64,000 nucleotides of DNA from Galactobacter caseinivorans. GTDB lineage: Bacteria; Actinomycetota; Actinomycetes; Actinomycetales; Micrococcaceae. The notes beneath the pieces are model-generated. The model was not told the DNA's origin and ran no database searches. It saw nothing but the letters and a program-made list of their open reading frames with translations. The DNA lies in NCBI RefSeq assembly GCF_003640665.1, contig NZ_QQXL01000004.1:114858-178857 (forward strand), in the 5' to 3' direction. Positions 9,301-46,244 of the stretch are shown here, one piece after another. The position numbers were made by a program, and so were the translations under genes. How positions within the stretch are numbered: the stretch's first letter is position 1; the number at the start of each line of letters is the position of its first letter.

Positions 9301-9402
9301 CACAGGCCGCTCCTAAAATCCGCACGTATTGTCGAAGACACCTCAAGGGTGCGAGTGATGACAAGACAAAAGCCCCGACCGGATGCCCCGGTCGGGGCTT
9401 TT
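9301..9402 (+). ncRNA. sRNA-like element copy A (promoter box, conserved core, hairpin)
   Basis: CACAGG (9301-9306), 20 bp, TATTGT (9327-9332), 12 bp, then AAGGGTGCGAGTGATGAC and a perfect hairpin AAAAGCCCCGACC / GGTCGGGGCTTTT (9368-9380 with 9390-9402). The same plan is seen at 31546-31652, 33419-33525, 45530-45631 and 46142-46244. The predicted RNA would be about 60-70 nt and end at the hairpin. This copy alone has T-tracts flanking the stem, so it also works as a terminator for the GNAT gene. Confidence 0.55.
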
Positions 9403-9430
9403 GTGCGTCCCGATGCGTCCCGATGGGCCC

Positions 9431-9463
9431 GGCCAGGGTGAGGAGACCGGACTCACCCTGGCC
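9431..9463. repeat. Inverted repeat before the CsoR-like operator
   Basis: GGCCAGGGTGAG (9431-9442) pairs with CTCACCCTGGCC (9452-9463), leaving a 9-nt loop. It sits between the sRNA-like element and the operator at 9469. It could be a second terminator or part of the regulatory region. Confidence 0.5.
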
Positions 9464-9468
9464 AATCA

Positions 9469-9485
9469 ATACCCCTGTGGGGTAT
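9469..9485. promoter_or_regulatory. CsoR-like copper operator
   Basis: ATACCCCTGTGGGGTAT is a perfect palindrome with the C4/G4 tracts and flanking ATA/TAT of Cu(I)-sensor CsoR operators. It lies 65 bp upstream of a His-rich protein gene. No csoR gene is present in the window, so the regulator would be encoded elsewhere. Confidence 0.7.
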
Positions 9486-9549
9486 GTTCTGACTGTGGCC
9501 GTCGCAGAGACGACCGGACCAGCAGCGCAACAGAAAGCAGGGCGGCATC

Positions 9550-10380
9550 ATGGCCGGAACGGAACTGGGCACCAGCGAGTACCTCCTGAGCGCCATCAGC
9601 GCACCCACGGAGATCAACACCCCGGGTGAGCTCAGCTTCCACATCGTTGGCCCGGACGGCGCCGCGGTCACTGACTTTGAAACCTCCCATGACAAGGCCC
9701 TGCACCTCATGGTGGTGCGCTCCGACGGGCAGAACTTCCTCCACGTACACCCCGTCCTTGACGCGACGACCGGCACGTGGAGCCTGCCCTGGAGTTGGGT
9801 GGAGGCCGGCAGCTACCGGGTGTTTGTGGACATCACCCCGCGCGGCGCTGAAGCCATGACGCTGAGCCGCATGATCGACGTCGGAGGGGTGCTGACCCCG
9901 CGCCCGGCCACCGGTCCGGTGCGCGCCGTCAGCGTGGGTGGCTTCGACGTCAGCATTACCGGCGAGCTGCTGGGCGGGGACATGAGTGATCTGGTGGTGA
10001 GCGTGAGCCAGAACGGCGCCCCGGTGACCGCGTTGGAGCCCTACCTTGGCGCGTTTGGCCACCTGGTGAGCCTGCGGGACGGGGACCTCTCCTACCTGCA
10101 CATCCACCCGCATGGCGATGAGCCGCAGCCCGGCCGGCACTCCGGCCCGGAGGTGAGCTTCATGGCCCACACGCCCAGCGAGGGCCGCTACCTGCTCTTC
10201 TTCGACTTCCAGGTGGCGGGCCAGGTGCACAGTGCGCACCTGGTGCTCGACGCCGCTCGGGGCACCTCGGTGCCCGGCTCGCCTCACGCGGGCCATGAGA
10301 TGGCGATGGGCCACGGCGCCCACGGCGCCCACGGCGCCCACGGCGGGCAGGGCGAGAACAGCCACGGGGCACACGCGTGA
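9550..10380 (+). CDS. His-rich protein under CsoR-like control, probable copper-related
   Basis: 276 residues. Two beta-rich repeats are visible: ALHLMVVRSDGQNFLHVHP near residue 57 and FGHLVSLRDGDLSYLHIHP near 165, each ending in a His-x-His motif. The C-terminus from about residue 245 is a His/Gly/Ala tail (HGAHGAHGAHGG) coded by tandem 9-bp GCCCACGGC repeats. The His pairs and tail suggest Cu or other metal binding. Homologues I recall are usually secreted or lipid-anchored, but no signal peptide is evident here, so this form would be cytosolic unless the start lies elsewhere. The CsoR-like palindrome upstream supports copper induction. Confidence 0.65.
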   Translation: MAGTELGTSEYLLSAISAPTEINTPGELSFHIVGPDGAAVTDFETSHDKALHLMVVRSDGQNFLHVHPVLDATTGTWSLPWSWVEAGSYRVFVDITPRGAEAMTLSRMIDVGGVLTPRPATGPVRAVSVGGFDVSITGELLGGDMSDLVVSVSQNGAPVTALEPYLGAFGHLVSLRDGDLSYLHIHPHGDEPQPGRHSGPEVSFMAHTPSEGRYLLFFDFQVAGQVHSAHLVLDAARGTSVPGSPHAGHEMAMGHGAHGAHGAHGGQGENSHGAHA

Positions 10381-10402
10381 GCCCCCGGTACCCCTCGGGG
10401 AC

Positions 10403-10492
10403 GGTTCCTTGCGGCTGACGTCGTCGCGCAGTGCGACGACCTAACGAACCCATCATCGTTAGCGCCCCTTAGGGGCACCGTTGCAAGGAACC
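10403..10492 (+). promoter_or_regulatory. Cloverleaf-like leader sequestering the SD of the NreB-like gene
   Basis: Outer stem GGTTCCTTGC (10403-10412) pairs perfectly with GCAAGGAACC (10483-10492), and the latter contains the AAGGA ribosome site of the gene starting at 10496. Inside are three abutting hairpins: GTCGTCGC/GCGACGAC (10420-10440), CTAACGA/TCGTTAG (10441-10462) and GCCCC/GGGGC (10464-10476). The result is a four-way junction that would switch translation off when the outer stem forms. It looks like a riboswitch or RNA thermometer class. The middle palindrome could also be a protein operator. Confidence 0.6.
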
Positions 10493-10495
10493 CTC

Positions 10496-11737
10496 ATGCT
10501 CTCCGTCCTGAAAAACCCCAGCTACGCCAAGCTCTTCTCCGCCCAGGTCATAGCCCTCATCGGCACTGGCCTGCTCACCGTGGCCCTTGGGCTCTTCGCC
10601 TACGACATCGCCGGGGATCAAGGCGGTGTGGTGATGGGCGTGGCCATGACCATCAAGATGCTTGCCTACGTGGGCGTCACCCCGGTGGTCAGCGCGCTCA
10701 CCGCCAGGCTGCCGCGCAAGACCGTGCTGATCGCCGCGGATGTGGTGCGCGCGGCCGTGGCCCTGGCGCTGCCGTGGGTGTCAGAGGCCTGGCACATCTA
10801 TGCGCTGATCTTCCTGCTGCAGTCCGCCTCCGCCACCTTCACTCCCACGTTCCAGGCGCTGATTCCCTCGGTATTGCCTGCGGTGCGGGACTACACCAAG
10901 GCGCTGTCCCTGTCCCGCCTGGCCTATGACATGGAGGCGCTGGCGAGTCCCCTGCTCGCGGTGCTCTTGTTGCAGTTGGTGGACTACCACCAGCTCTTCT
11001 TTGGGACGGTCGCCGGGTTTGTGATCTCCGCGCTGCTGGTCCTGATCACCCGGCTCCCCGGCACGGTCGCAGGCGGCCCTCAGCGCAGCTTTGCCCAGCG
11101 GCTCACGGGTGGCATCAAGCTGTTCTGGACCAGGCGCGAGCTGCGGGGCCTGCTGGCACTGAACCTGGTGGATGCGGCCGTCACCGCCATGGTCATCGTC
11201 AATACTGTGGTGATTGCCCAGAGCCTCTTTGGCCGGGACCAGTCCCAGGCGGCGCTGCTGCTGGCGGCCAATGGCACCGGCTCCCTGCTGGTGGCGTTCG
11301 CGATGGTCCCGTTGCTTGATCGCTTCAACGACCGGGCGGTCATGAAGGTGGGCGCCACCGCCCTCCCGCTGGCCCTGCTGTTGGGCGCGGCCGTGATGTT
11401 CCTTGGCAGCGGGGACGCGCAATGGGTGCTGCTGCTGGCGGTGTGGTTCCTGATCGGGGCCAGCACGGCACTGACGCTCACCCCGTCCTCGCGCCTGCTG
11501 CAGCGCAACTCCACGGATGACACGCGCCAGGAGGTGTATTCGGCGCAATTCTCCCTCTCCCACGCCGCATTCCTGCTGACGTATCCGCTGGCCGGATTCC
11601 TGGGTTCGGCGCTGGGCATGCCCGCCACCGCGTTGATTCTGGCGGGCGTGGCGCTGGCCGCCATGGTGCTGCTGCGCCTGGCGTGGGCGGGGCTTCAGCC
11701 CCGGATTGGCGCGCCGGTGGTTGCGGTGGAAGCGTAG
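10496..11737 (+). CDS. MFS transporter, NreB-like (putative nickel/metal exporter)
   Basis: 413 residues from ATG 10496, preceded by AAGGAA five bases upstream. It is an MFS carrier with about 12 hydrophobic segments. The opening MLSVLKNPSYAKLFSAQ, followed by LIGTGLLTVALGLFAYDIAG, closely resembles the NreB/NRE nickel-resistance branch as I know it; the central loop RLTGGIKLFWTRRELRGLL separates the two halves. Unlike classical NreB, there is no histidine-rich C-terminus. Placement after a CsoR-like operon and behind a structured leader supports a metal-efflux role, but the substrate is inference. Confidence 0.75.
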   Translation: MLSVLKNPSYAKLFSAQVIALIGTGLLTVALGLFAYDIAGDQGGVVMGVAMTIKMLAYVGVTPVVSALTARLPRKTVLIAADVVRAAVALALPWVSEAWHIYALIFLLQSASATFTPTFQALIPSVLPAVRDYTKALSLSRLAYDMEALASPLLAVLLLQLVDYHQLFFGTVAGFVISALLVLITRLPGTVAGGPQRSFAQRLTGGIKLFWTRRELRGLLALNLVDAAVTAMVIVNTVVIAQSLFGRDQSQAALLLAANGTGSLLVAFAMVPLLDRFNDRAVMKVGATALPLALLLGAAVMFLGSGDAQWVLLLAVWFLIGASTALTLTPSSRLLQRNSTDDTRQEVYSAQFSLSHAAFLLTYPLAGFLGSALGMPATALILAGVALAAMVLLRLAWAGLQPRIGAPVVAVEA

Positions 11738-11741
11738 GGGC

Positions 11742-12680
11742 ATGATCACGCTCGACGACGTCCGCGCGGCGCACGCTCTCATCTCACCTTCCGTGCGGGT
11801 CACCCCCCTGAGCCGCTGGTCACCGCGGGTGTTGCTCAAGCACGAATACATGCAACTCTCCGGCACGTTTAAGGCCCGCGGCGCCTACGCGCGGCAGCTG
11901 GCGGCCCTGGCCTCAGGGGAGTTGGATCCGCGGGTCGGCGTGGTCGTGGCCTCCGGCGGCAACGCCGGCCTGGCCCACGCGCTCGTGGCGCGGGAGTTGG
12001 GCCACCCTGCGGAGGTTTTTGTGCCGGGCGCCGCCTCGGAGGTCAAGGTCAAGCGCCTGCGGGCGGCCGGCGCTACGGTGCACCAGGTGGGCCGCATCTA
12101 TGACGACGCCTTTGCCGCGTCCCAGGAGCGGGTGGCCCAGACGGGCGCCATCTTCTGCCACGCCTACGACCAGCCGGACATCCTGGCCGGCGCCGGGTCC
12201 GTGGCGCTGGAGCTGCAGGAACAGGCCCCGGACGTGGACACCGTGATGGTCTCCGTGGGCGGCGGCGGTCTGCTGGGTGGCCTCCTGGCCGGACTGCGCC
12301 CCGGCATCAAGGTCGTGGCCGTGGAGACGCAGGGCTGCCCCACGCTGCACTCCGCGCTCGCCGCGGGGGAGCTCGTGGATGTGGAGGTGGGCGGCGTGGC
12401 CGCCGATTCCCTCGGCGCAACGCGCCTGGGCGCGCTGGGCTGGGAGCTGGCCAAAGCGGCGTCGGGCACTGTCGAAGCGCGGTTGCGCAGCGTCCTGGTG
12501 AGCGACGACGCGGTGCTGGCCGCGCAGGCGGCGCTCTGGGACGAGCAGCGCGTGATCACCGAACCGGCCGCGGCCACCGCGCTGGCCGCGCTGACCTCTG
12601 GGGCATACATCCCGGCCGCGTCGGAGACGGTTGCCGTGATTCTGTGTGGGGCAAATACCTCGCCCGGGCTGGTGGCCTGA
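11742..12680 (+). CDS. Fold-type II PLP-dependent threonine/serine dehydratase
   Basis: 312 residues from ATG 11742, four bases after the previous stop. The signature of the family is complete: the PLP lysine in LSGTFKARGAYA near residue 48, the phosphate/substrate loop ASGGNAGLAHAL near 80, the Gly-rich phosphate-binding loop VGGGGLLGGLLAG near 180, and a C-terminal EPAAATALAAL. These enzymes deaminate threonine or serine to oxo-acids. There is no ACT domain, so it is a catabolic or side-activity dehydratase rather than allosteric biosynthetic IlvA. The DNA glycosylase gene follows within five bases. Confidence 0.88.
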   Translation: MITLDDVRAAHALISPSVRVTPLSRWSPRVLLKHEYMQLSGTFKARGAYARQLAALASGELDPRVGVVVASGGNAGLAHALVARELGHPAEVFVPGAASEVKVKRLRAAGATVHQVGRIYDDAFAASQERVAQTGAIFCHAYDQPDILAGAGSVALELQEQAPDVDTVMVSVGGGGLLGGLLAGLRPGIKVVAVETQGCPTLHSALAAGELVDVEVGGVAADSLGATRLGALGWELAKAASGTVEARLRSVLVSDDAVLAAQAALWDEQRVITEPAAATALAALTSGAYIPAASETVAVILCGANTSPGLVA

Positions 12681-12684
12681 AGCC

Positions 12685-13299
12685 GTGCCGGAACAGCCCG
12701 CGGAACTGTCTGCGGTGCAGCCCCCGGACCCGCGCTGGGCGTGGCTGGACGTCCCGGTGGAGGAGGCGGCGCGCCGATTGCTGGGGTGCCGGCTCATCAG
12801 CGAGGTGGGCGGGGACCTCACTAGCGCCCGGATTGTGGAGACGGAGGCGTACTCCCCGGATGACCCGGCTAGTCACACCTTTCGCGGGCCAAACAAGCGC
12901 AATGCGGCCATGTTCCTGGGCGCCGGGCACGCCTATGTGTACCTGAGCCATGGGATCCACAGCTGCCTCAACATCGTGAGTGGGCGCGCAGGGGCGGGTT
13001 GCGGTGTGCTCATCCGCGCCGTGGAACCCCTGGAGGGCGGCGGGCTCATGCGCCTGCGCCGCGGCGGCCGCGACGGGGTGGAGCTGAGCAATGGGCCGGG
13101 CAAGCTGGGGCAGGCGCTGGGCATCAACCTGGGGTTGACCGGGCATGACCTGCAGGCGCCTCCGCTGCGGCTGCTGCGCGGCGCCGAGCCGCCGCGGGTG
13201 GTTGTCACCACGCGGATCGGGATCAGCAAGGGAGTTGAGCTCCCGCGCCGTTTTTACGACGCGGAAAGCCGGTACGTCTCCAAGTACGTCCGGGCGTAG
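12685..13299 (+). CDS. 3-methyladenine DNA glycosylase (AAG/MPG family)
   Basis: 204 residues from GTG 12685; a start at 12646 would overlap the previous gene and add 13 residues. It removes alkylated purines in base-excision repair. The catalytic glutamate is in RIVETEAY near residue 53, followed by ASHTFRGPNKRNAAMF and by AYVYLSHGIHSCLNIV, which carries the intercalating Tyr region. Later blocks GVLIRAVEPLEG, NGPGKLGQALGI and ISKGVELPRRFY are also family hallmarks. Length matches bacterial AAG. Tight spacing suggests co-transcription with the dehydratase. Confidence 0.93.
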   Translation: MPEQPAELSAVQPPDPRWAWLDVPVEEAARRLLGCRLISEVGGDLTSARIVETEAYSPDDPASHTFRGPNKRNAAMFLGAGHAYVYLSHGIHSCLNIVSGRAGAGCGVLIRAVEPLEGGGLMRLRRGGRDGVELSNGPGKLGQALGINLGLTGHDLQAPPLRLLRGAEPPRVVVTTRIGISKGVELPRRFYDAESRYVSKYVRA

Positions 13300-13342
13300 G
13301 CCTCAGTCGCTAGGCGCTCAGCACCAAGTACGAGACGCGAGG

Positions 13343-13457
13343 CGTGTGGGGCGTGGGGCGTGACGCGTGGGGAGTGGGCCGTGGCGCCCGGGGCGTGGGC
13401 CGAGACGTGTGGGGCGTGACGCGTGGGAGTGGGGCGTGGACCGTGGCGCCCGGGGCC
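13343..13457. repeat. Imperfect tandem repeat of a GTGGGGCGTG-rich ~52-bp unit
   Basis: Two related copies start at 13343 and 13406, each running CGTGTGGGGCGTG through GTGGCGCCCGGGGC. They occupy the gap between the glycosylase and PadR genes (13300-13728), which holds no convincing gene. The purine-rich strand is uninterrupted over more than 100 bp. Confidence 0.6.
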
Positions 13458-13488
13458 AGCGCCGCCTCTGACGACGATTCCAGCCTGA

Positions 13489-13548
13489 GTGCCACTTCAT
13501 ACGACATTTGCCGTCTTGCAAGACGGCAAATGTCGTATGAAGTGGCAC
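13489..13548. repeat. Perfect 60-bp palindrome
   Basis: Bases 13489-13518 are the exact reverse complement of 13519-13548: 30-bp arms with no mismatch and no loop (centre CTTG|CAAG). The arm interior (ACTTCATACGACATTTGCC) is A/T-richer than its surroundings. As RNA it would be a very stable hairpin; as DNA it could extrude a cruciform. No family assignment. Confidence 0.85.
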
Positions 13549-13728
13549 GGGCACGGGCGACGGGCGAGGGTGCTCATGCACGTGCCGAACCCACCGCTTG
13601 CTCGTCCCGAGCCCACCCCGCCGAGCCCACCGGGCCCTACCCAACACCACCCCCGGGCTTGCGCTTTCTCCACTATTCAGTGATGCTATGTACCAGTACT
13701 CAGTAACAAAGAGGAGCGAGGAGGGCAC

Positions 13729-14163
13729 ATGGGCAAGCAAGCCACAGAGATGCTCAAGGGAGTCCTGGAGGGAATCGTCCTGGCCATCCTGGGCCGGCAA
13801 TCCGCCTATGGCTACGAGATCACGGCCTGGCTGCGGGATCAGGGCTTCACGGACATCGCAGAGGGCACCGTCTACGCGTTGCTGGTGCGTGTGGAGCAGC
13901 GCGGGCTCGTGGACGTGGAGAAGGTCCCGTCGGAGAAGGGCCCCCCGCGCAAGGTCTACACCCTCAATTCGCAGGGCCGGGCGCACCTGGACGAGTTCTG
14001 GGGCCAATGGGGCCTCCTCGTTGACCGGGTGGAGTCCCTGCACCGCCCAGGAGCTACCTCAGCCGGAGCTACCTCAGCCGGAGCTACCTCAGCCGGAGCT
14101 AGCTCCGCCGGCACCAACGCAACTGAAGACACCGCACAGGAAGGCACCCATCATGGCCGCTGA
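13729..14163 (+). CDS. PadR-family transcriptional regulator
   Basis: 144 residues from ATG 13729. The winged-helix PadR domain covers residues 5-90: EMLKGVLEGIVLAILG, YGYEITAWL, GTVYALLVRVEQRGLV and GPPRKVYTLNSQGRAHL are the usual blocks. The C-terminal tail is unusual, with repeated GATSA units coded by a 15-bp tandem repeat. PadR proteins repress drug- or phenolic-responsive genes, and this one heads a PadR-DUF1048-ABC operon. The gene end overlaps the next start by 11 bp. The promoter region holds short dyads (CACTATTCAGTG near 13670) that may be autoregulatory. Confidence 0.92.
   Translation: MGKQATEMLKGVLEGIVLAILGRQSAYGYEITAWLRDQGFTDIAEGTVYALLVRVEQRGLVDVEKVPSEKGPPRKVYTLNSQGRAHLDEFWGQWGLLVDRVESLHRPGATSAGATSAGATSAGASSAGTNATEDTAQEGTHHGR
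14051..14110 (+). repeat. 15-bp tandem repeat inside padR (4 units)
   Basis: GAGCTACCTCAGCCG is repeated exactly three times from 14051 to 14095, plus a diverged fourth unit (GAGCTAGCTCCGCCG) to 14110. It encodes the Gly-Ala-Thr-Ser-Ala tail of the PadR protein. Because the unit is a multiple of three, copy number can change without frameshift. Confidence 0.9.
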
Positions 14164-14524
14164 ATGGATTGAAAAGCTCACCGGTTCCTTTGAGGACAAG
14201 AAGCGCTACCGGAACTATCGGGCCCGCGTGGAGGCGCTTCCCACGGCCTACGGAGACTCCGTCAAGGCGCTGGAGCGCTACCTCACCTACGCCGGCGCCA
14301 TCTCCGCGGGAGACACGCTGGTGCAGATGTTGGATGACCTGGCAGTGCTCTTTGAGGAGGCCGCCGCCAACTCCACGCCCCTGCGCGACGTGACGGGGGA
14401 GAACCCCGCAGAATTCGCCGAGGACTTCCTCGCCAACTACTCCGACGGGCAGTGGATCAACAAGGAACGCATGCGCCTGAACTCCGCGATCGCCAAGGCG
14501 GCGGGGGAGGCCGGCTCCTCGTGA
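14153..14524 (+). CDS. DUF1048 protein of PadR/ABC operon
   Basis: 123 residues, helical, with the DUF1048 pattern: WIEKLTGSFEDKKRYRNYRARV at the start and AYGDSVKALERYLTYAG in the middle. Proteins of this family commonly sit between a PadR regulator and an ABC exporter in Firmicutes and Actinobacteria, exactly as here; their biochemical role is not established. The start ATG 14153 overlaps the padR 3' end. The stop overlaps the GTG of the ABC ATPase (GTGA), so the genes are translationally coupled. Confidence 0.88.
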   Translation: MAAEWIEKLTGSFEDKKRYRNYRARVEALPTAYGDSVKALERYLTYAGAISAGDTLVQMLDDLAVLFEEAAANSTPLRDVTGENPAEFAEDFLANYSDGQWINKERMRLNSAIAKAAGEAGSS

Positions 14525-15354: not shown

Positions 15355-16112
15355 GTAGCCACGCCCTGCAGGACACGGCCGTGCTGACCGGGCGGCTGCT
15401 GACGCGGATCCGGCGCAGCCCGGACACCATCGTCACCACCGCCATCATGCCCATTGCCCTGTTGTTGCTCTTTGTCTATGTGCTGGGCGGGGCCATCCAG
15501 ACCGGCGGCGGCACGTACATCAATTACATGCTCCCCGGAATCCTGCTCATCACCATTGCCTCTGGCATTGCCTACACCGCCTTTAGGCTGTTCCAGGACC
15601 TGCAGGGCGGCATCTTTGAGCGCTTCCAGTCCATGCCCATTGGGCGCTCCGCCATGCTGTGGTCCCACGTCATCACCTCGCTCGTGGCCAATGTGGTCTC
15701 CCTGGTGATTGTGGTGGGGGTGGCCCTGCTCATGGGCTTCCGCACCGGAGCCAGCGTGCTTGGATGGCTCGGCGTGGCGGGCATGCTGGTGCTCTTCACT
15801 CTGGCGCTGACCTGGATCTCGGTGATCGCAGGCCTGAGTGCCAAGACGGTGGACGGCGCCAGCGCGTTCTCTTACCCGCTGATCTTCCTGCCGTTCGTGA
15901 GTTCCGCGTTTGTGCCCACCAACAGCATGCCGGGCCCGGTGCGTTGGTTCGCCGAGCACCAGCCGGTCACCTCGCTCGTCAACGCCATCCGGGCCATCTT
16001 TGAGGGTCAGCCCATCGGCTCGGATCTGTGGGTGGCGCTGGGCTGGTGCGTCGGGATTCTGGTGCTGGCGTACATCGGCGCCATGCTGATCTATCGCCGC
16101 CGCGCCAGCTGA
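15351..16112 (+). CDS. ABC-2 type permease (DrrB-like)
   Basis: 253 residues with six hydrophobic segments. The first follows TRIRRSPDTIVTTAIMPI. The conserved ABC-2 loop appears as FRLFQDLQGGIFERFQSMPI, where the Glu-Arg region contacts the ATPase. The later block FLPFVSSAFVPTNSMPGP and WFAEHQPVTSLVNAIRA is a DrrB hallmark. Together with the upstream ATPase it forms a drug or lipid exporter. Last gene of the PadR operon; the next gene is convergent with a gap of 12 bp. Confidence 0.93.
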   Translation: MSSHALQDTAVLTGRLLTRIRRSPDTIVTTAIMPIALLLLFVYVLGGAIQTGGGTYINYMLPGILLITIASGIAYTAFRLFQDLQGGIFERFQSMPIGRSAMLWSHVITSLVANVVSLVIVVGVALLMGFRTGASVLGWLGVAGMLVLFTLALTWISVIAGLSAKTVDGASAFSYPLIFLPFVSSAFVPTNSMPGPVRWFAEHQPVTSLVNAIRAIFEGQPIGSDLWVALGWCVGILVLAYIGAMLIYRRRAS

Positions 16113-16124
16113 TCTGAGCTGCGG

Positions 16125-17393: not shown

Positions 17394-17394
17394 C

Positions 17395-31545: not shown

Positions 31546-31652
31546 GAAGGCCCCGAGCGATCTTGGGGAAAATCGCTCGGGGCCTTCGCGTCATCACTCG
31601 CACCCTTTGAGGTAGTTAAAACAATAATGACGCTCCCTGTAAATCCGCTGAG
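31546..31652 (-). ncRNA. sRNA-like element copy B
   Basis: Read on the minus strand: CTCAGC (31652-31647), 20 bp, TATTGT (31626-31621), TTTAACTACCTC, the core AAGGGTGCGAGTGATGAC, GCG, then hairpin GAAGGCCCCGAGCGATTTT / AAGATCGCTCGGGGCCTTC ending at 31546. Stem bases differ from the other copies yet pairing is kept. No T-tract follows. It points away from the ABC-2-like gene at 31674 and toward rsgA. Confidence 0.5.
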
Positions 31653-31673
31653 CGCCATCCTGGAGTTGCATGG

Positions 31674-32723
31674 TCAGGGGCTGGTCGCCACCCGTGGGGA
31701 GCTGCCAGCCAGGCGCCGGCGCTTCAGCGCCTCCCCGGCCAGGGCAAGCAGCGCGCCGAAGATCACCCAGGCCGCCAGGGTGAGCCATTGCTGAGCCGTA
31801 TTGGCCTCCGGGAAATAGCTGATGTCTCGAAGCAGGGTGTTGCCGGCACCGGGGACCAGGAACTGACCGATGGCGCCCCAAGGCTCGGGTATGAACTGCC
31901 ACGGGGCGTTGGAGCCGGAGAGCGGGTTGCCGAGCAGAACGGTGACGATGGGACCCAAGGCGATGCCGGGTGAACCGAGGAGTTTCACGCAGCCGATCAT
32001 GAAGGTGGCTGTCGCTCCCACGGTGAGACCGATCGCCGCGACGTTGAGCCACGCGTTGCCCTGTAAGTAGCCAAACCAGGCCTGCATGATCAGCACCAAC
32101 AGCCCGCCGGCCGCAGCGGCAAAGACGGCGGCCCCACCCAAACGGCGCCACGTGCCGTGCACCTTCGTGGAGAGGAGGACGCCGCCGATCACGCCACCCA
32201 GGGCCAGGGGCAGGGCGGCCAACGCCAAGCCGGAACCCATGGGGTCGTTGGCGGAGAGCTGCACGAGGGGGATGACGGTGACCTTGGCACTGGCTGGATC
32301 ACCGCCGGCGGCGGCGATCTGCTTGCCCATGTCCGCCTGGAGCTTGGAGGCCAGTCCGGTGAGCATCTGAGTGGGTGCGGCACCCGCGGCGGGGGCAGTG
32401 AGCACCTCCGGCGGCGCGGGCTGCCCGCCGTTCCCGGTGCTCAACACGATGGCTCCGTAGGTCACGCGCCGCTTGATCTGAGACTCGGCCTCAGTGCGGT
32501 CGGCGGCGCGGTGCACCACAAAGGTGCCAGGGGAGGCCTGTTCCAGCTGTTTTTCTACGGCGGTGACAGCGGCCTCGGGACCGGCCAGGCTCACGGGCAG
32601 GTGGTGGGCGGTGGACGTCTTGGCCGGCCACATGAAGGCCAAGACGAGGAGGGCGACCACGAGTGACCCACCCAGGCCGAGCACCGCCGCCTTGATCCAG
32701 GGGGTGCGGATGCGAATATTCAT
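31674..32723 (-). CDS. Multi-pass membrane protein, ABC-2/YhgE-like
   Basis: 349 residues: one N-terminal hydrophobic segment (about 12-32), a 130-residue extracytoplasmic region with HLPVSLAGPEAAVTAVEKQL and RVTYGAIVLSTGNGG, then five or six hydrophobic segments from about 165 on. That topology, and AIVLSTG in the outer region, match YhgE/Pip- or ABC-2-type proteins that act in export. There is no ATPase gene nearby. The gene diverges from a TetR gene, and two related palindromes lie between them, so it is the probable target of that regulator. Confidence 0.75.
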   Translation of the reverse strand: MNIRIRTPWIKAAVLGLGGSLVVALLVLAFMWPAKTSTAHHLPVSLAGPEAAVTAVEKQLEQASPGTFVVHRAADRTEAESQIKRRVTYGAIVLSTGNGGQPAPPEVLTAPAAGAAPTQMLTGLASKLQADMGKQIAAAGGDPASAKVTVIPLVQLSANDPMGSGLALAALPLALGGVIGGVLLSTKVHGTWRRLGGAAVFAAAAGGLLVLIMQAWFGYLQGNAWLNVAAIGLTVGATATFMIGCVKLLGSPGIALGPIVTVLLGNPLSGSNAPWQFIPEPWGAIGQFLVPGAGNTLLRDISYFPEANTAQQWLTLAAWVIFGALLALAGEALKRRRLAGSSPRVATSP

Positions 32724-32790: not shown

Positions 32791-33387
32791 ATGCCCAAGC
32801 TCACAGAAGAGGGGCGCCAGTCGCGCCGCTTACAGATCGCCGAGGCCGCCCTGCGGTGCTTTGCTCGCAATGGCTTTGTTGCCACCTCCATGACGGACAT
32901 CATTCGTGAGAGCGGCCTGTCCGCGGGGTCCATCTACTCGCACTTCGATTCCAAGGCCGAACTTGTCCGGTTCTCAGCGCTGGCGCTCTTGGAGGATCGC
33001 GGCGCCCTGCTGCAGCACCTCTCCGGCGGTTCGCCCGGTGTTATTACCCCGCACCGCTTGCTGCGCCGGCTCGTGGAGCAGGTCCTGCCGGAGGAGTTGG
33101 GTGCTGTGGTGCTGCAGCTCTTTGCCGAATCCGCGAGGGACCGGGACCTGGCCGCGGTCGTGGAGGAGGCGCTGGAGAAGGTGAAGGGCATTGTGGCGCG
33201 GGAACTGGGCCCGTGGGCTCAGACGCAGGAAGGGAACGGCCGCTTCGAGGGGGTGGATGCCGACGCTGTGGCGCTGCGCATGGCGGACGTGATCATGGTC
33301 AATGTCCACGGCTTTGTGCTGCGGCGGGGCCTGATCGCCGACCTGGATCGGGAGTCGCTCCTGGTGGACCTGCTGCCGGACGCCTAA
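32791..33387 (+). CDS. TetR/AcrR-family regulator
   Basis: 198 residues. The helix-turn-helix is AALRCFARNGFVATSM, then TDIIRESGLSAGSIYSHF with the usual Y-x-H-F end, followed by DSKAELV. The C-terminal ligand domain is variable and helical (LLEDRGALLQHL to LVDLLPDA). ATG 32791 directly follows the second operator palindrome, so autoregulation is likely. The divergent membrane protein at 31674 is the natural target. The ligand is unknown. Confidence 0.92.
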   Translation: MPKLTEEGRQSRRLQIAEAALRCFARNGFVATSMTDIIRESGLSAGSIYSHFDSKAELVRFSALALLEDRGALLQHLSGGSPGVITPHRLLRRLVEQVLPEELGAVVLQLFAESARDRDLAAVVEEALEKVKGIVARELGPWAQTQEGNGRFEGVDADAVALRMADVIMVNVHGFVLRRGLIADLDRESLLVDLLPDA

Positions 33388-33418
33388 GGGTCCGGGCGCA
33401 TTGGCTGCCGCACATGAT

Positions 33419-33525
33419 GAAGGCCCCGGCCGGTTTGGGGGAAACCGGTCGGGGCCTTCGCGTCATCACTCGCACCCTTTGGAGGTAGTCATGACTCTAC
33501 GAGCCGACTCTTTGGGGCGGCTGTG
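33419..33525 (-). ncRNA. sRNA-like element copy C
   Basis: Minus strand: CACAGC (33525-33520), 20 bp, TAGAGT (33499-33494), CATGACTACCTCC, core AAAGGGTGCGAGTGATGAC, GCG, then hairpin GAAGGCCCCGACCGGTTTC / AAACCGGCCGGGGCCTTC ending at 33419. A G-U/C-G difference in the stem keeps pairing. It lies between two TetR genes that converge on it. Confidence 0.5.
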
Positions 33526-33573
33526 CGCACCCATCGCGTGTACTACACATCCCCGGTGCGCCCGCTGTGTGCG

Positions 33574-34134
33574 TCAGCTGGTGGTGAGTGCGAGCCCCGC
33601 TGCGATCTCGATGTCATCCGAGGCCCCGGCAAAACCCGCGCCATGCGCCAGCGCCGAGCCAAAGATGGACGTCCAAAACGTCTTGGCAGAACTGCGAACG
33701 CCGTGTGCGGTACCCCAGCCACGCGTCGTCGTCTCCGCTTCGAGAAAGCGCTCCGAACGGGAGAGGAGGAGGCGCAGGTAGCCGGAGACCACGTCCTGCA
33801 GTGCCGGGTTGTTGCGCGCCAGTGCCAGTGAGCTGACCACCGAATCAAGGGACGGCATGGTCAGTGCGGTGCGCGTGATGGCGGCGGCGAAGGCGTCCGT
33901 GGTGCGCGCGGAGCGGACGGCGCGGGGCAGGCGTGAGGTGTCGCGCAAGAAGCGGGAGAAGGCAGCCGCGACGTAGAGCTGGTCCTTGGAGCCAAAGTGG
34001 TGAGTGACCTGGTTGGGGAAGACGCCGGCGGCCTCGGCGACCTGTTTGACCGTCAACTCGGCCGGTGTGCGCTCCAGGACCAGGGCGGCCGCGGCGGTGC
34101 GGATCAGCGTGCGAGTGTCACGACGGGTAGACAT
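33574..34134 (-). CDS. TetR-family regulator, divergent from fabF-like gene
   Basis: 186 residues. The N-terminal DNA-binding part has TLIRTAAAALVLERTP, then LTVKQVAEAAGVFPNQVTHHF (recognition helix, in part) and GSKDQLYVAAAF. The C-terminal domain (RTALTMPSLDSVVSSLALARNN and following) is typical of small TetR proteins of unknown ligand. It diverges from the ketoacyl-synthase gene across 67 bp containing a double palindromic operator, so it probably represses both itself and that gene. Confidence 0.9.
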   Translation of the reverse strand: MSTRRDTRTLIRTAAAALVLERTPAELTVKQVAEAAGVFPNQVTHHFGSKDQLYVAAAFSRFLRDTSRLPRAVRSARTTDAFAAAITRTALTMPSLDSVVSSLALARNNPALQDVVSGYLRLLLSRSERFLEAETTTRGWGTAHGVRSSAKTFWTSIFGSALAHGAGFAGASDDIEIAAGLALTTS

Positions 34135-41224: not shown

Positions 41225-41239
41225 CCAGGCCCTCGGCGA

Positions 41240-41311
41240 AGGTTTGCGCTCCGATGTGTGCGGATGCAGGCCAAAGCGGGGCTGCATCCGCACACATTGA
41301 GGCGCAAACCT
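41240..41311. repeat. 72-bp palindromic repeat, copy 1
   Basis: Left arm 41240-41269 begins AGGTTTGCGCTCCGATGTG; right arm 41282-41311 ends GAGGCGCAAACCT. The 30-nt arms pair with three mismatches around a 12-nt loop. A near-identical element lies at 41974-42045; the two bracket the SRPBCC gene in the same orientation. Confidence 0.85.
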
Positions 41312-41472
41312 CGAGTCAGGGGCTGGGCGCGGGGCGCTTGGCGCGCAAGACTGGTCCCCGTGGCGCCGCGCGTCCGGCGTAGGCCGAGCGCGTGGCGGAC
41401 CACCCGCGGGCGGGCCAGCTCAAGCCTGCCGCTCGCGGCCACAGAGTAGCCAATGAGTACGGGGGAGCAAGC

Positions 41473-41958
41473 ATGACCGAAGAGAACGTGGACCAGTCCG
41501 GTGCGGAGTTTGGCGAGGAGGCCTTGGTGGAGGGCATCACCATCGACCGCGTCTTTGATGCGCCGCCGGCCGCGGTGTTTGCCGCCTGGACCCAGGCGGA
41601 GTCCTTCTCGCGCTGGTTTGGGGGCCCCGACATCGAGGTGCCGATGGATCGCCTGGACTACGTGGCGCAGCCGGGCCGCGAGTGGCGGGCCGTCATGGTG
41701 CTTCCGGACGGGAACACCATGAACTGGGCGGGCAACTTCGAGACGGTGGAGCCGGATGCCTCGCTGGTCCTGACCATCACCGATCGCCCGGATGAGCCCA
41801 CGCGCGCCAAGATCACCGTTGACCTGAGTCCCGAGGGCGAGGGCACCGCGATGTACTTTGCCCAGGACACCCCGGGCTTCACGCCCGAGCAGCAGGACTC
41901 GCTGGTGGGCGGGTGGAACCACTTCTTTGACGAGATGGCCAAGGTCGCGGGGGCGTAG
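41473..41958 (+). CDS. SRPBCC (AHSA1-like) domain protein
   Basis: 161 residues from ATG 41473. After a short acidic leader the AHSA1/START-like fold is clear: ITIDRVFDAPPAAVFAAWT, then FSRWFGGPDIEVPM, GREWRAVMVLPDGNTMNWAG, FETVEPDASLVLTITD and the C-terminal helix QQDSLVGGWNHFFDEMAKV (in part). These domains bind hydrophobic ligands; many bacterial ones are uncharacterised. It stands alone between two copies of a 72-bp palindrome, which could mean the gene was carried or duplicated with them, though its codon use is like that of its neighbours. Confidence 0.88.
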   Translation: MTEENVDQSGAEFGEEALVEGITIDRVFDAPPAAVFAAWTQAESFSRWFGGPDIEVPMDRLDYVAQPGREWRAVMVLPDGNTMNWAGNFETVEPDASLVLTITDRPDEPTRAKITVDLSPEGEGTAMYFAQDTPGFTPEQQDSLVGGWNHFFDEMAKVAGA

Positions 41959-41973
41959 CCGGGCCCGCGGCGG

Positions 41974-42045
41974 AGGTTTGCGCTCCGATCTGTGCGGATG
42001 CAGCCCAAAGCGGGCCTGCATCCGCACACATTGAGGCGCAAAGCC
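41974..42045. repeat. 72-bp palindromic repeat, copy 2
   Basis: Left arm begins AGGTTTGCGCTCCGATCTG at 41974; right arm starts CTGCATCCGCACACATTG at 42016. It differs from copy 1 at only a few positions, mainly in the loop and the last bases of the right arm. It ends about 40 bp before a REP-like hairpin. Confidence 0.83.
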
Positions 42046-42083
42046 CGCGCCAAGGGCCGGCAGCGCCACTGTGCCACAGAGCC

Positions 42084-42127
42084 AGGTGCCCGACGCCGCT
42101 GACGTGAGTCAGCGGCGTCGGGCACCT
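42084..42127. repeat. REP-like perfect inverted pair
   Basis: AGGTGCCCGACGCCGCTGAC (42084-42103), loop GTGA, GTCAGCGGCGTCGGGCACCT (42108-42127). A flawless 20-bp stem, the best copy of the dispersed motif in the window, followed by TTTG. It probably also terminates SRPBCC transcription. Confidence 0.88.
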
Positions 42128-42202
42128 TTGCCTTGTGGGGACGTCCCAAAAGTGTGACGCACCTGGCGCGGGGGTGTGATCTGGGTCTACAGTGATGGGA
42201 AG

Positions 42203-42239
42203 ATATTCGATATGGGAACGCCGCGTTCTATAAACGAAC
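42203..42239. promoter_or_regulatory. Candidate IclR-type operator upstream of the hydroxylase
   Basis: ATATTCGATAT (near 42203-42213), GAACGCCGCGTTC (42216-42228) and GTTC-N7-GAAC (42225-42239) are overlapping short palindromes 44-80 bp upstream of the hydroxylase start. IclR-family activators of aromatic catabolism use imperfect repeats of this kind. Assignment is tentative. Confidence 0.45.
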
Positions 42240-42282
42240 ACTCAATGACGAGCAGGGCAACCAGAGGCAAAGCGAGGCCAGC

Positions 42283-44229
42283 ATGCAGTTCCACGAAGAC
42301 GGGTATGTCACCGGAGACCCGATCATCAAGCGCCCGGCCGGAATTGGCCTGAACCGCACCGCGGAGCTGCCCGTCGAGCTGGACGTGCTGATTGTGGGTG
42401 AGGGCCCGGCCGGGATGATCACCGCCGCGCAGCTCTCCCAGTTCCCCGGCATCAACGCCCGCCTGGTGGAGCGCCGCCCGGAGGAGCTGCTGGTGGGTCA
42501 GGCGGACGGCATTCAGGCCCGCTCCGTGGAGACCTTCCAGGCGTTCGGCTTCGCCAACCGGGTGATTGACGAGGGCTATCACATCACCGAGATGTCCTTC
42601 TGGAAGCCAGGGACCACCAATCCAAGCGAGATTGTGCGCGCGGCCGTGGCCAAGGATGACGAGCTCAACGTCTCCGAGTTTCCGCACCTGATCGTGAACC
42701 AGGCCCGCATCATGCAGTACTTCGGCGAGGTCATGCGCCAGTCGCCCACGCGCATGGTGCCGGACTACGGGATCGAGTACCTCTCGCATCAGATCGACGA
42801 GTCAGAGGAATACCCGGTCGCCGTCACGCTGCGCCGCGTGGCCGGCCCCCAGTCCGGCGAGGAGTTGGTGGTCCGCACCAAGTACCTGGTGGGTGCGGAC
42901 GGCGCCCGGTCCCAGATTCGCCGCGACATCGGCGCCACCCGTCAGGGCAAGCAGGCCGCCCACGCATGGGGCGTGGTGGATTCCTTGGCCGTCACCGACT
43001 TCCCGGATTGGCGCGTGAAGTGCGCCATTCAGTCCAATGACGGCGGATCCATCTTGCACATCCCCCGCGAGGGCGGGCAGCTCACGCGCATGTACGTGGA
43101 CCTGGGCGAGGTGGCGGAGGATGACAACCACGCCGTGCGCGAGACCCCGATGAGCCAGATCATTGCCCGGGCCAACCAGATTTTGCACCCCTACACGGTG
43201 GACGTGAAGCACATCGCCTGGTCCTCCGTGTACGAGGTGGGCCACCGCGTCACCGATCGCTTCGACGACGTGCCGGCGCAGGAGCGCGCGGTGCGCCAGC
43301 CCCGCGCCTTCATCCTGGGCGATGCCTGCCACACGCACTCCGCCAAGGCTGGGCAGGGCATGAACGTCTCCATGCAGGACGGGTTCAACCTGGGCTGGAA
43401 GCTGGCCCACGTGCTGCTGGGCGTGGCCCCCACCGAGCTGCTGCGCACCTACACGGATGAGCGTCAGGAGATTGCGCAGAATCTCATTGACTTTGACAAG
43501 ACGTGGTCCTCGATGATGGCCGCCAAGCCGGAGGACTTTGACTCGCCCACGGAGCTAGAGGACTTCTACGTTCGCACCGCCGAGTTCCCGGCCGGGTTCA
43601 TGACCGAGTACAAGACCTCGCTGGTGTGCGGCACCCAGGACCACCAGGACCTGGCCACCGGTTACACCGTGGGCAAGCGCTTCCGCTCCGCCCAGGTGGT
43701 GCGCCGCGCCGAGGGCAACCCGGTGCAGCTGGGCCACCTGGCCCAAGCCGATGGCCGCTGGCGCATCTACGTTTTCGCGGACGCCCCCGCCGCCGGCCAG
43801 CCCTCCAAGACCACCGATCTGGGGGAGTGGCTCGCGAATGATCCGGCCTCGCCGTTGGTGGGTGCCGACCTGGGCGGCCGGCGTCGCCGCGAGTGGTTTG
43901 ACGCCAAGGTGATCTACCAGCAGAACCACCTGGACTTTGAGCTGCTGGACGCGCCCGCCGCCTTCCGCCCCGTCTACGGTGCGTTTGACCTGATGCAGTA
44001 CGAGAACGTGTTCTCTGCCGACCCCGAAACGGACATCTACGCGGAGCGCGGAATCTCCCGCGACGGCGCAGTGGTGGTGGTCCGCCCGGATCAGTACGTG
44101 GCCCAGGTGCTGCCGCTGGACGCGCACTCCGAGCTGGCTGCCTTCTTTGAGGTCGTGATGCCGCACACCGGCGCGGGCGTCTTGGCCGCCACCGGAACGG
44201 CCGCCACCGCCACATCTACTCAGGCCTGA
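42283..44229 (+). CDS. FAD-dependent aromatic hydroxylase (3-hydroxybenzoate 4-monooxygenase/phenol 2-monooxygenase type)
   Basis: 648 residues, the length of MobA/PheA-type flavin hydroxylases. The FAD loop is VLIVGEGPAGMITAAQLS near residue 35, the DG motif VGADGARSQIRR near 205 and the GD motif FILGDACHTHSAKAGQGMN near 343-361, followed by DGFNLGWKLAHVLLG. The C-terminal thioredoxin-like domain (from about 470; FRSAQVVRRAEGNPVQLGHL) is present. The enzyme inserts one oxygen ortho to a phenolic hydroxyl using NAD(P)H; 3-hydroxybenzoate or a phenol is the likely substrate. The IclR gene follows after three bases, so regulator and enzyme share a transcript. Confidence 0.9.
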   Translation: MQFHEDGYVTGDPIIKRPAGIGLNRTAELPVELDVLIVGEGPAGMITAAQLSQFPGINARLVERRPEELLVGQADGIQARSVETFQAFGFANRVIDEGYHITEMSFWKPGTTNPSEIVRAAVAKDDELNVSEFPHLIVNQARIMQYFGEVMRQSPTRMVPDYGIEYLSHQIDESEEYPVAVTLRRVAGPQSGEELVVRTKYLVGADGARSQIRRDIGATRQGKQAAHAWGVVDSLAVTDFPDWRVKCAIQSNDGGSILHIPREGGQLTRMYVDLGEVAEDDNHAVRETPMSQIIARANQILHPYTVDVKHIAWSSVYEVGHRVTDRFDDVPAQERAVRQPRAFILGDACHTHSAKAGQGMNVSMQDGFNLGWKLAHVLLGVAPTELLRTYTDERQEIAQNLIDFDKTWSSMMAAKPEDFDSPTELEDFYVRTAEFPAGFMTEYKTSLVCGTQDHQDLATGYTVGKRFRSAQVVRRAEGNPVQLGHLAQADGRWRIYVFADAPAAGQPSKTTDLGEWLANDPASPLVGADLGGRRRREWFDAKVIYQQNHLDFELLDAPAAFRPVYGAFDLMQYENVFSADPETDIYAERGISRDGAVVVVRPDQYVAQVLPLDAHSELAAFFEVVMPHTGAGVLAATGTAATATSTQA

Positions 44230-44232
44230 TCC

Positions 44233-44934
44233 ATGCCAGACGCCGCACCCTCCGCCGGCTCGCAGACCCTGTCCCGGGGCCTGCGGGTCATGGAGGTCTT
44301 GGCTGAGGCGGAGTCTGCGCTGGGCATTCCCGAGCTGTGCGATCGGCTGGGGCTGCACCGCTCCATCGTCTACCGTCTGCTGCGCACGCTGGAGGAGCAC
44401 GGCCTGGTGGTGCGGGACAAGGGCGGCTCCGTCCGCCTTGGGCCGGGCCTGGCGGCGCTGGCCCGCACGGTGGAGCGGGACTTGCAGGCCTCGGTCCTCC
44501 CGGAGCTGACTGCCCTGGCGAATCAGCTGGGGTTCACGGCGTTCCTCGCCGTCCTGGACGACGACGCTGTGGTCACCTTGGTCTCCGTGGAACCTCGGCA
44601 CGGGAAGGCATCCGTGGCGCAGCGCCCGGGCACGCGGCATTCCTTGAATGTTGGCGGGCCGGGGGCGGCGATCCGTTGGCTGCTGGCGTCGGAGGAGCTG
44701 CGCAGCCGCGGGTTGGAGCGCCCGCAGCTGCGCTCCACCGACGCCGGGATCCTCTACGCCGTCAGCAACGCAGAGGTGATCCCAGGGGTGTCCTCGGTGG
44801 CGGTGCCACTGGTGCTCCCGGATCACCCGCCCGCCGCGCTCGCCGTGGTGCGCGTGGGTCCAAGCGAGGACCCGGGGCAGGCCGCGGCGCTCTTGGCAAC
44901 CGCGGCCCGAGCCGTGGAGGCGGACCTCAGCTGA
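44233..44934 (+). CDS. IclR-family transcriptional regulator
   Basis: 233 residues. Winged helix: LSRGLRVMEVLAEAESAL, then IPELCDRLGLHRSIVYRLLRTL (in part) and HGLVVRDKGGSVRLGPGL around residues 12-75. The effector domain follows from about 85 (LQASVLPELTALANQLGFTAFL in part) with RHSLNVGGPGAAIRWLL, where the signature Gly-Ala-Ala-Ile/Leu and the expected ligand loop lie, and SNAEVIPGVSSVAVPL. It is the last gene after the hydroxylase, three bases away, and probably controls its expression in response to the aromatic substrate. Confidence 0.92.
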   Translation: MPDAAPSAGSQTLSRGLRVMEVLAEAESALGIPELCDRLGLHRSIVYRLLRTLEEHGLVVRDKGGSVRLGPGLAALARTVERDLQASVLPELTALANQLGFTAFLAVLDDDAVVTLVSVEPRHGKASVAQRPGTRHSLNVGGPGAAIRWLLASEELRSRGLERPQLRSTDAGILYAVSNAEVIPGVSSVAVPLVLPDHPPAALAVVRVGPSEDPGQAAALLATAARAVEADLS

Positions 44935-44953
44935 CCGGGGTCAGCGGCGCTGT

Positions 44954-45376
44954 TTAGTCGTCGCTGACGGAGACCGTCACCTCAATGTTGCCGCGCGTGG
45001 CGTTGGAGTACGGGCAGACCTGATGGGCGGCGTCCGCCAGGGCCTGAGCGGCGTCATGCTCCAGCTCGGGGAGCACCACCTCCAGGTGAACGGCGAGCTG
45101 GAAGCCGCCCTGGCCGTTGTCCCCAATGCTGACGCGCGCGCCCACGCTGGAGCCATGGATGGCGACCTTCTGCGCGCGGGCCACGGCCTGCAGGGCGGAG
45201 TTGAAGCACGCGGCGTAGCCGGCGGCAAAGAGCTGCTCGGGGTTGGCGCCATCGCCGGCGCCGCCCATGGCCTGGGGGACCCGCATCTCGAATTCCAACG
45301 GCGACTCGGAGACGGAGACGTGGCCGTCGCGGCCGCCTCCGGTAGCGAGGGCTTCGGTGGTGTAAATCGGCTTCAT
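44954..45376 (-). CDS. ohr: Organic hydroperoxide resistance protein (Ohr)
   Basis: 140 residues from ATG 45376, the standard Ohr length. Ohr is a homodimeric thiol peroxidase for organic and fatty-acid hydroperoxides. Catalytic Cys57 stands in GYAACFNSALQAVA and resolving Cys121 in HQVCPYSNATRGNI. The conserved Arg (EMRVP) and Glu (NPEQLFAAG) complete the active site. The pattern separates it from OsmC proper. No OhrR gene is adjacent. An sRNA-like element lies in the upstream gap on the other strand. Confidence 0.95.
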   Translation of the reverse strand: MKPIYTTEALATGGGRDGHVSVSESPLEFEMRVPQAMGGAGDGANPEQLFAAGYAACFNSALQAVARAQKVAIHGSSVGARVSIGDNGQGGFQLAVHLEVVLPELEHDAAQALADAAHQVCPYSNATRGNIEVTVSVSDD

Positions 45377-45529
45377 GGAAACACCTTTCTGCAGTGCCAC
45401 CCGGGTGGGGCGGCTGGGTCAAGCGGTGAGGCCGCGGAAGCAGCCACCACTGACACTACGAGCGTGTGGGCCCGCTGACCAGTTGGGAATGACGGCCCCA
45501 CGGGGCACACACCGGCCTGGATGGTGGGG

Positions 45530-45631
45530 CACAGGCGGCCCACAAACTGGGGGCCTACAGTCGTGACTACCTCGAAGGGTGCGAGTGATGACAAGGAGCG
45601 GGGCTCCGGCTAACAAGCCGGGGCCCCGCTC
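45530..45631 (+). ncRNA. sRNA-like element copy D
   Basis: CACAGG (45530-45535), 20 bp, TACAGT (45556-45561), CGTGACTACCTCG, core AAGGGTGCGAGTGATGAC, AAG, then hairpin GAGCGGGGCTCCGGC / GCCGGGGCCCCGCTC (45596-45631). It lies in the 334-bp gap between the ohr and VOC genes, which contains no other gene. A REP-like half-site follows at 45661-45675. Confidence 0.52.
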
Positions 45632-45660
45632 TCGTTGTGGGCGGCTCTGGGAGCCGGCCC

Positions 45661-45675
45661 AGCGGCGTCGGGCAC
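45661..45675 (-). repeat. REP-like motif, single copy
   Basis: AGCGGCGTCGGGCAC, the reverse complement of GTGCCCGACGCCGCT, 36 bp before the VOC gene. Confidence 0.5.
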
Positions 45676-45710
45676 TGTTGCCAGCCCCGGCTGGGGAGTA
45701 GCTTCGAGGC

Positions 45711-46094
45711 ATGAGCAGCCGAGTTTCCCACACCAGCATTGATTGCACCGACGCGTTTGCGCTGTCCGAATGGTGGCGGCAGAGCCTTGACTACGAGATG
45801 GACCCGGCGGATCCCAATCTGCCGGGGCACGAGGAGTGCCTGATCCATTCGCCGGTGGACGGGCACCAGCTGCTCTTCATTGAGGTGCCGGAGGGCAAGG
45901 GTGGCAAGAACCGGATCCATTTTGACCTGAGGCCCACCGACCGCTCCCGCGATCAGGAGGTGGACGCGCTCCTGGAGAGGGGCGCGAGCGTCTACGCCGA
46001 TCTGCGCAAGCCCGACGGCACGGGCTGGGTCACCATGCAGGATCCGGAGGGCAACGAGTTCTGCGTGCTGCGCTCGGACGCCGAGTTGGGTTGA
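45711..46094 (+). CDS. VOC-family protein (glyoxalase-like domain)
   Basis: 127 residues from ATG 45711. It follows the Glyoxalase_6 pattern: HTSIDCTDAFALSEWWRQSL at the start (in part), LLFIEVPEGKGGKNRIHFDL in the middle and WVTMQDPEGNEFCVLRS at the end, the D-P-E-G-N-E-F-C block of this subgroup. His near residue 7 and Glu in NEFC are the possible metal ligands. Substrate unknown. It is framed by two sRNA-like elements, D upstream and E downstream, both on the same strand. Confidence 0.9.
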   Translation: MSSRVSHTSIDCTDAFALSEWWRQSLDYEMDPADPNLPGHEECLIHSPVDGHQLLFIEVPEGKGGKNRIHFDLRPTDRSRDQEVDALLERGASVYADLRKPDGTGWVTMQDPEGNEFCVLRSDAELG

Positions 46095-46141
46095 GTTCGG
46101 CACGTTTCACCGCGCCGATTTCACCGCACTGGCGGCTGGCG

Positions 46142-46244
46142 CACAGGGCTGGCACAAGATGACTCCTTAGAGTCATAACTACCTCCAAGGGTGCGAGTGA
46201 TGACGCGAAGCGGGGCCTCGGCTGATCAGCCGGGGCCCCGCTTC
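46142..46244 (+). ncRNA. sRNA-like element copy E
   Basis: CACAGG (46142-46147), 20 bp, TAGAGT (46168-46173), CATAACTACCTCC, core AAGGGTGCGAGTGATGAC, GC, then hairpin GAAGCGGGGCCTCGGCTG / CAGCCGGGGCCCCGCTTC (46207-46244). It starts 48 bp after the VOC gene and may serve as that gene's terminator or be an independent transcript. Confidence 0.53.

Follow-up and report, generated by a model that had tools for sequence, protein, structure and literature searches.

A probable multicopy small RNA family of the Micrococcaceae with response-regulator-type promoters and predicted envelope and export targets

Base-pairing small RNAs (sRNAs) of Actinobacteria are poorly understood, with few known targets and, to our knowledge, without a canonical Hfq in these bacteria. 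In Gram-negatives the envelope-stress sRNAs of the sigmaE and Cpx systems, i.e. RybB, MicA and CpxQ, make use of Hfq. In Listeria monocytogenes the multicopy, LisRK-dependent sRNAs LhrC1-5 are induced by envelope stress and hinder the translation of an envelope-protein mRNA (PMC4132741). Mcr7 of Mycobacterium tuberculosis is activated by PhoP and controls export by pairing at the 5' end of the tatC mRNA, its major loop pairing over the ribosome-binding site and the first codons (PMC4038636). Here, we analysed a stretch of 64,000 nucleotides of Galactobacter caseinivorans (NZ_QQXL01000004.1, positions 114,858 to 178,857; the window), in which a first-pass annotation had noticed five short intergenic elements resembling genes for sRNAs.

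These elements are probably best explained as a response-regulator-activated family of trans-acting sRNAs sharing one seed and repressing mRNAs of envelope and export proteins. With somewhat more reservation, we propose that this undescribed family acts, Micrococcaceae-wide, as the post-transcriptional branch of a two-component regulon for envelope/secretion stress and lowers dozens of exported-protein and transport mRNAs, often from several near-redundant genes and without Hfq. According to this model, each element is a stand-alone gene for an sRNA of approximately 65-75 nt, longer in some relatives, whose transcription would start about 7 nt after the TANNGT box. Envelope or secretion stress would place a phosphorylated OmpR-family response regulator, in the genus most likely the PhoP ortholog C16:50004, on tandem 11-bp half-sites, and the activated regulator would raise protease and translocase genes, as part of a regulon including envelope and secretion quality-control genes, together with several sRNA copies. 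The RNA is predicted to fold into a short 5' hairpin (YACCU..AGGGUG), the exposed invariant seed CGAGUGAUGA and a copy-specific terminator hairpin. The seed would pair with UCAUCACUCG-type (UCAUCACUC) sites located 20-50 nt upstream of the start codons of mRNAs for membrane proteins, lipoproteins, transporters and other exported proteins, whose translation or stability would most probably be lowered, with the envelope load falling while the regulon is on. Since the elements combine regulator-type boxes with complementarity to the leaders of mRNAs for membrane and secreted proteins, they probably slow export under envelope stress. We infer repression rather than activation because of the precedents LhrC and Mcr7 (PMC4132741, PMC4038636); stabilisation of the mRNAs by 5'-end pairing is a possible alternative outcome.

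The predicted regulon logic, with proteases and chaperones going up and envelope-protein mRNAs going down by means of a seed sRNA, resembles that of sigmaE/Cpx, and if the model is true the family would be an actinobacterial counterpart of the sigmaE/Cpx and LhrC systems operating without Hfq. With LhrC the elements share the multicopy state, a predicted two-component control and predicted envelope targets, no homology being claimed; in contrast to LhrC, which has redundant CU-rich sites and stems from another phylum, they carry one invariant GAGUGAUGA seed without CU-rich repeats and occur family-wide. Placed beside Mcr7 by description only, they share the predicted PhoP-type activation and pairing with export mRNAs but differ in the shortness of the RNA, in having several genes for it per genome, and in their many candidate targets with sites upstream of the Shine-Dalgarno sequence. 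The actinobacterial 6C RNA (RF01066) has C-rich hairpin loops, as do many members of the present family (UUCCCCCAA loops). Identity with 6C RNA was rejected as these loops are optional in the elements, the 6C model is not reached and the 6C RNA of the genome is a separate locus. This canonical 6C RNA is located at G000:C11:205333-205411 (L042) and has several C-rich loops. A two-component-activated, multicopy, envelope-targeting sRNA is a kind of RNA already known; the RNA family itself is absent from Rfam.

Architecture and distribution of the family

The window holds the invariant 16-mer GGGTGCGAGTGATGAC exactly five times (9347+, 31590-, 33462-, 45577+, 46189+) and no variants of it with one or two mismatches. 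As originally described, all five copies have a -10 box, ACCTC and a strong terminator hairpin of their own, and they lie between genes on both strands, 0/5 overlapping a gene predicted by codon usage. An alignment of 75 elements, beginning 50 nt before the -10 box and extending through the core, was used to construct a promoter-plus-core covariance model, which finds just these five elements in the window (E 2e-19 to 8e-21; next match E=0.14). The genome has seven copies rather than the five first reported, with the two located outside the window (C14:214833 and C16:57776) each having a GATGAA end.

In the window, copy 1 (plus strand) consists of a box array in 11-bp register (9277-9326, including CACAGG at 9301-9306), the -10 box TATTGT (9327-9332) and a predicted RNA with putative ends at 9338 and 9404, which contains the hairpin CACCUCAAGGGUG, the single-stranded seed (9352-9361) and a terminator hairpin from 9366. 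Copies 2 and 3 are on the minus strand. The former has its array (CTCAGC, TTTACAG) at 31627-31676, TATTGT at 31621-31626 and a predicted RNA at 31547-31615 (seed 31591-31600; C-rich terminator loop UUUUCCCCAAG), the latter its array (CACAGC, CCCAAAG) at 33500-33549, TAGAGT at 33494-33499 and a predicted RNA at 33418-33488 (seed 33463-33472; C-rich terminator loop UUUCCCCCAAA). Copies 4 and 5 are again on the plus strand, with arrays at 45506-45555 (CACAGG, CCCACAA) and 46118-46167 (TTTCACCG, CACAGG, GCACAAG), -10 boxes TACAGT (45556-45561) and TAGAGT (46168-46173), predicted RNAs at 45567-45632 and 46179-46244, seeds at 45582-45591 and 46194-46203, and terminator hairpins at 45595-45632 and 46207-46244.

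The TANNNT-type -10 box is separated from hairpin 1 (YACCU...AGGGUG) by 7 nt in most elements. In this hairpin 98.1% of the alignment cells are paired, compared to 30-62% when the pairing is slid, and its covariation score is above 500/500 shuffles, the changes being mostly one-sided. It is followed by the unpaired core GCGAGUGAUGA and by the GC-rich hairpin, the sequence of which is copy-specific while pairing is retained, as had been noted; the four folded elements (copies 1, 2 and 4 and C14:214833) are 5.6-6.8 SD better than shuffles. Some relatives have a longer form containing two hairpins with UUCCCCCAA loops, and copies 2 and 3 of the window have retained a loop of this kind. Tandem duplications of the core, by 15 nt in several copies from one genus (L022/L055/L056) and by 11 nt in the copy on C16 (L007), argue against its being read in frame. 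A core duplication of about 14 nt is also seen on plasmid NZ_CP133844.1.

Strong covariance-model matches (E<1e-10) were found in 34/37 sampled Micrococcaceae genomes, usually with 1-10 copies each and some copies in tandem, 160-260 nt apart, while 1.5e-5 was the best match among 22 genomes representing 20 further families of the order. The 15-nt core, allowing one mismatch, is present in 282/398 Micrococcaceae genomes and in 32/32 genera drawn, the reversed pattern being far rarer. Plasmid-borne copies exist in Citricoccus (NZ_CP039425.1, NZ_CP133844.1) and Micrococcus (NC_022599.1). Carriage by phages was rejected, with no exact match in viral contigs and only unrelated partial matches in phage records. 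A metagenome-assembled contig labelled Acidobacteria (JABBNV010000125.1, L039) shares the same element and 7,873 bp with G031:C219 from a Micrococcaceae-placed genome and is probably misnamed. In agreement with the first impression that the elements match no known RNA family, Rfam 15 gives no family at the gathering threshold in the window, the elements yielding sub-threshold chance matches only, and we found no description of such an sRNA from Arthrobacter, Micrococcaceae or Micrococcus luteus in the open literature, an earlier account elsewhere being possible.

At the level of sequence, the elements show what is expected of base-pairing sRNAs, i.e. an own promoter and terminator, an intergenic position and conservation. 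Family-wide conservation, the 5' hairpin, stand-alone placement and the target enrichment described below all argue for the multicopy sRNA with shared seed and individual terminators that was originally suggested. As the family occurs in nearly every Micrococcaceae genus sampled, a post-transcriptional lowering of envelope protein load in high-GC Gram-positives is directly testable, for which the family offers a candidate regulator and a promoter code together with a seed and a ranking of targets.

Promoter array and candidate regulator

Anchoring 73 elements on the -10 box reveals information peaks 11 bp apart, with A/G at -45/-44, -34/-33, -23/-22 and -12/-11. The repeated unit is TTC(A/C)CAG-like (TTCACAG-like) with 4-bp spacing, and the array ends 10 bp upstream of the -10 box. 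The first-pass annotation had treated CACAGG or a variant as a promoter element followed by 20-bp spacers sharing nothing. The motif is indeed found in all five window copies (CACAGG, CTCAGC, CACAGC, CACAGG, CACAGG), but judged from its register it is the -22 unit of a response-regulator direct-repeat array, a PhoP/MtrA-type half-site and not a -35 box, and the spacers contain a second half-site 11 bp downstream, visible in the 75-member alignment. PhoP of M. tuberculosis binds as a tandem dimer to TCACAGC-N4-TCACAGC (PMC4832192); direct TCACAGC-like 7-mers with a 4-bp spacer are found in the 11-bp array, with degenerate units.

A pattern of two units plus the -10 box gives 59 matches in four genomes of the genus versus 13 for the reversed control. 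Apart from the sRNAs, it precedes genes for proteases of the Lon_C/PDZ, M50 (RseP-like) and HtrA-like types, SecA and a Bax inhibitor (BaxI) in the genus genomes, and in the G. caseinivorans genome those for SecG, a MarP-like protease and a membrane protein with DUF4352. Using a 56-nt weight matrix, the seven sRNAs rank top in their own genome (26.5-34 bits), followed by the fhaA operon (20 bits) and by operons for a response regulator (15.5) and for an ECF sigma/anti-sigma pair (15.2). At scores under about 15 bits the matrix does not outperform the control, so that it is mainly the recurrence of the pattern across the genus which speaks for an envelope regulon. The phosphate PHO regulon seems insufficient as sole explanation, as the pstS promoters carry GTTCACC repeats, with CACC, while the sRNA boxes end in CAG. 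Across the order (L086-L115) these promoters show GTTCACC-N4-GTTCACC repeats, and in L110 TTCACC lies 10 bp upstream of TAGCGT, a geometry as in the sRNA boxes.

For the response regulator C16:50004, the best match in the PDB is M. tuberculosis PhoP (241 bits), ahead of PrrA (178), RegX3 (148) and MtrA (142). Of the six base-contacting residues, four (N, E, Y, Y) are identical, the others changing from V to I and from S to L. The gene has an array directly upstream in its own promoter (ACACAG-N5-TCACAG-N5-GGACAG).

Complementarity to leaders of exported-protein mRNAs

The prediction of targets for the core covered contigs C11-C16, 2.43 of 2.95 Mb, with 1,981 home-made gene calls, and shows its complement being enriched upstream of genes for membrane and exported proteins. 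Complementary 7-mers at -38..-11 mark 27 genes, 15 of which encode a hydrophobic N-terminus compared to 24% of all genes (Fisher 4e-4). Restricted to genes with an intergenic upstream region, 15 out of 22 are hydrophobic (background 24%; Fisher 1.1e-5), a number reached by 0/1000 permuted seeds, and for 8-mers it is 9 out of 10. The enrichment is strand-specific, as a search with the sense strand of this seed yields 7 genes, 1 of them hydrophobic. Site positions peak at -50 to -21, with 63 sites in three 10-nt bins versus about 6-13 per bin in most others. An independent ranking by duplex energy places 13 hydrophobic genes in the top 20, with shuffled cores reaching at most 9. In contrast to the seed, the complements of hairpin 1 and of the C-rich loops show no clear enrichment upstream of starts.

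The candidate targets include an OppB-like permease (C11:334117; 11 nt complementarity), an Ltp-type exported protein (C15:54869), a VanY carboxypeptidase (C15:260767), an amino-acid permease (C14:35997), a dicarboxylate symporter, COX3 (C12:288528) and cytochrome bd. Lipoproteins are represented by solute-binding proteins of family 3 (SBP_bac_3, C11:138492) and family 5 and by Bmp, and further membrane proteins by DUF485 and DUF969. In the window, a putative site CATCACTC (46880-46887, minus strand) lies beside copy 5, 30 nt upstream of a membrane-protein gene (46255-46857, minus strand). In 41 Micrococcaceae genomes the 10-mer TCATCACTCG, requiring a non-C next base to exclude the canonical core, occurs 91 times versus 44 for its reverse, and in another genus (G019) such a site immediately precedes the gene for a homolog of the exported target. 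An accessible, conserved seed and complementary sites in mRNA leaders are supported by these statistics.

Weight of the evidence and alternative readings

Several observations weigh against the proposed model. The elements are known here from sequence alone, from which we infer transcription. Leaving out the seven sRNAs, the genome-wide promoter scan is just modestly above control. Targets were analysed in 82% of a single genome using home-made gene calls, seed and upstream window were picked once this genome had already been inspected, and cross-genus conservation of sites amounts to one coordinate match. The predicted sites lie upstream of the Shine-Dalgarno sequence, and ribosome occlusion is therefore not automatic. 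Finally, a PhoP ortholog was not found (E<=1e-70) in 9/36 Micrococcaceae genomes searched, and as 7 of these 9 have strong sRNA matches PhoP does not accompany the sRNA everywhere and cannot be the sole regulator.

These gaps lend some plausibility to a real multicopy sRNA family being activated by the near-universal MtrA or another OmpR-type regulator instead of PhoP, an alternative we consider possible although rather doubtful. MtrA is present in 35/36 genomes, including all seven PhoP-lacking ones with strong sRNA matches, and the half-sites of MtrA in mycobacteria form direct repeats resembling GTCACAgcg (PMC13189361, PMC6265350). However, the CAG ending of the units fits M. tuberculosis PhoP (TCACAGC) better than GTnAC, and an array is found upstream of phoP itself while none is seen upstream of mtrA. 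Moreover, in seven aligned promoters from PhoP-lacking genera, which are few and related, CAG is missing from the proximal -22/-11 units and the distal pair is retained, whereas proximal CAG half-sites are common in PhoP-bearing genomes, a contrast that is small and phylogenetically confounded (promoter L195 was left out of this comparison). Considering the PhoP gaps together with the near-universal MtrA and its similar half-sites, PhoP appears the likeliest regulator in this genus, with MtrA as a serious rival.

The invariance of the core, its duplication in some members and the C-rich loops present in many members, as in 6C-type RNAs, could also suggest that the RNAs act as a protein sponge or as a ribosome/anti-Shine-Dalgarno decoy, with the ACCUC hairpin and the C-rich loops titrating an RNA-binding protein or masking Shine-Dalgarno sequences and the core being a protein-binding motif. 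We regard this as unlikely since it is the complement of the core, not the sense strand, which is enriched upstream of a coherent gene class, and since several copies lack C-rich loops.

Copies 1 and 4 lie 5' of a gene on the same strand, as would be seen for cis-acting leaders or attenuators of downstream genes. This reading is very improbable and was rejected on orientation: copies 3 (33419-33525, minus strand) and 5 (46142-46244, plus strand) face convergent genes and therefore cannot be leaders, the downstream genes are unrelated, and each copy has its own terminator. Equally improbable is a short ORF or leader peptide, for which AAGGGTGCGAGTGATG resembles a ribosome-binding site plus start, with an SD-like AAGG about 9 nt before ATG in most copies; it was rejected on the frame, as GTGATTA or GTGATCA replaces GTGATGA in some members, one copy has an 11-nt core duplication, the frame enters the variable terminator and the SD-like stretch is paired. 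A mobile or palindromic repeat (MITE, REP) without regulatory function is hardly conceivable despite the multicopy, clustered and partly plasmid-borne nature of the elements, because constraint is seen on the boxes, the -10, the hairpin and the core, with spacers and stems free to differ, and no element boundaries were noted.

Regarding the genomic surroundings, two TetR-type regulators and an ABC-2-type membrane protein are encoded around copies 2 and 3 (31674-32723, 32791-34134). In the region G000:C16:57208-59466 (L007), copy 7 is flanked by a deaminase-like gene and a tRNA gene, with a phage-type integrase coming next; it lies 5-8 kb downstream of the operon encoding the PhoP-like regulator. 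The genus genomes also contain divergent members (L126, L127, L136) with the same promoter boxes, the hairpin UGCCUCCUGAAGGCA and the core GGCACGAGTGATAA, among which hairpin 1 shows a compensatory replacement of A-U by G-C. A second sRNA-like element with the same promoter type and the core AGGATACGAGTGACGGGG is found in L144, L162 and L174 of the genus genomes; in L162, CACUCG could pair with CGAGUG, which would hide the seed.

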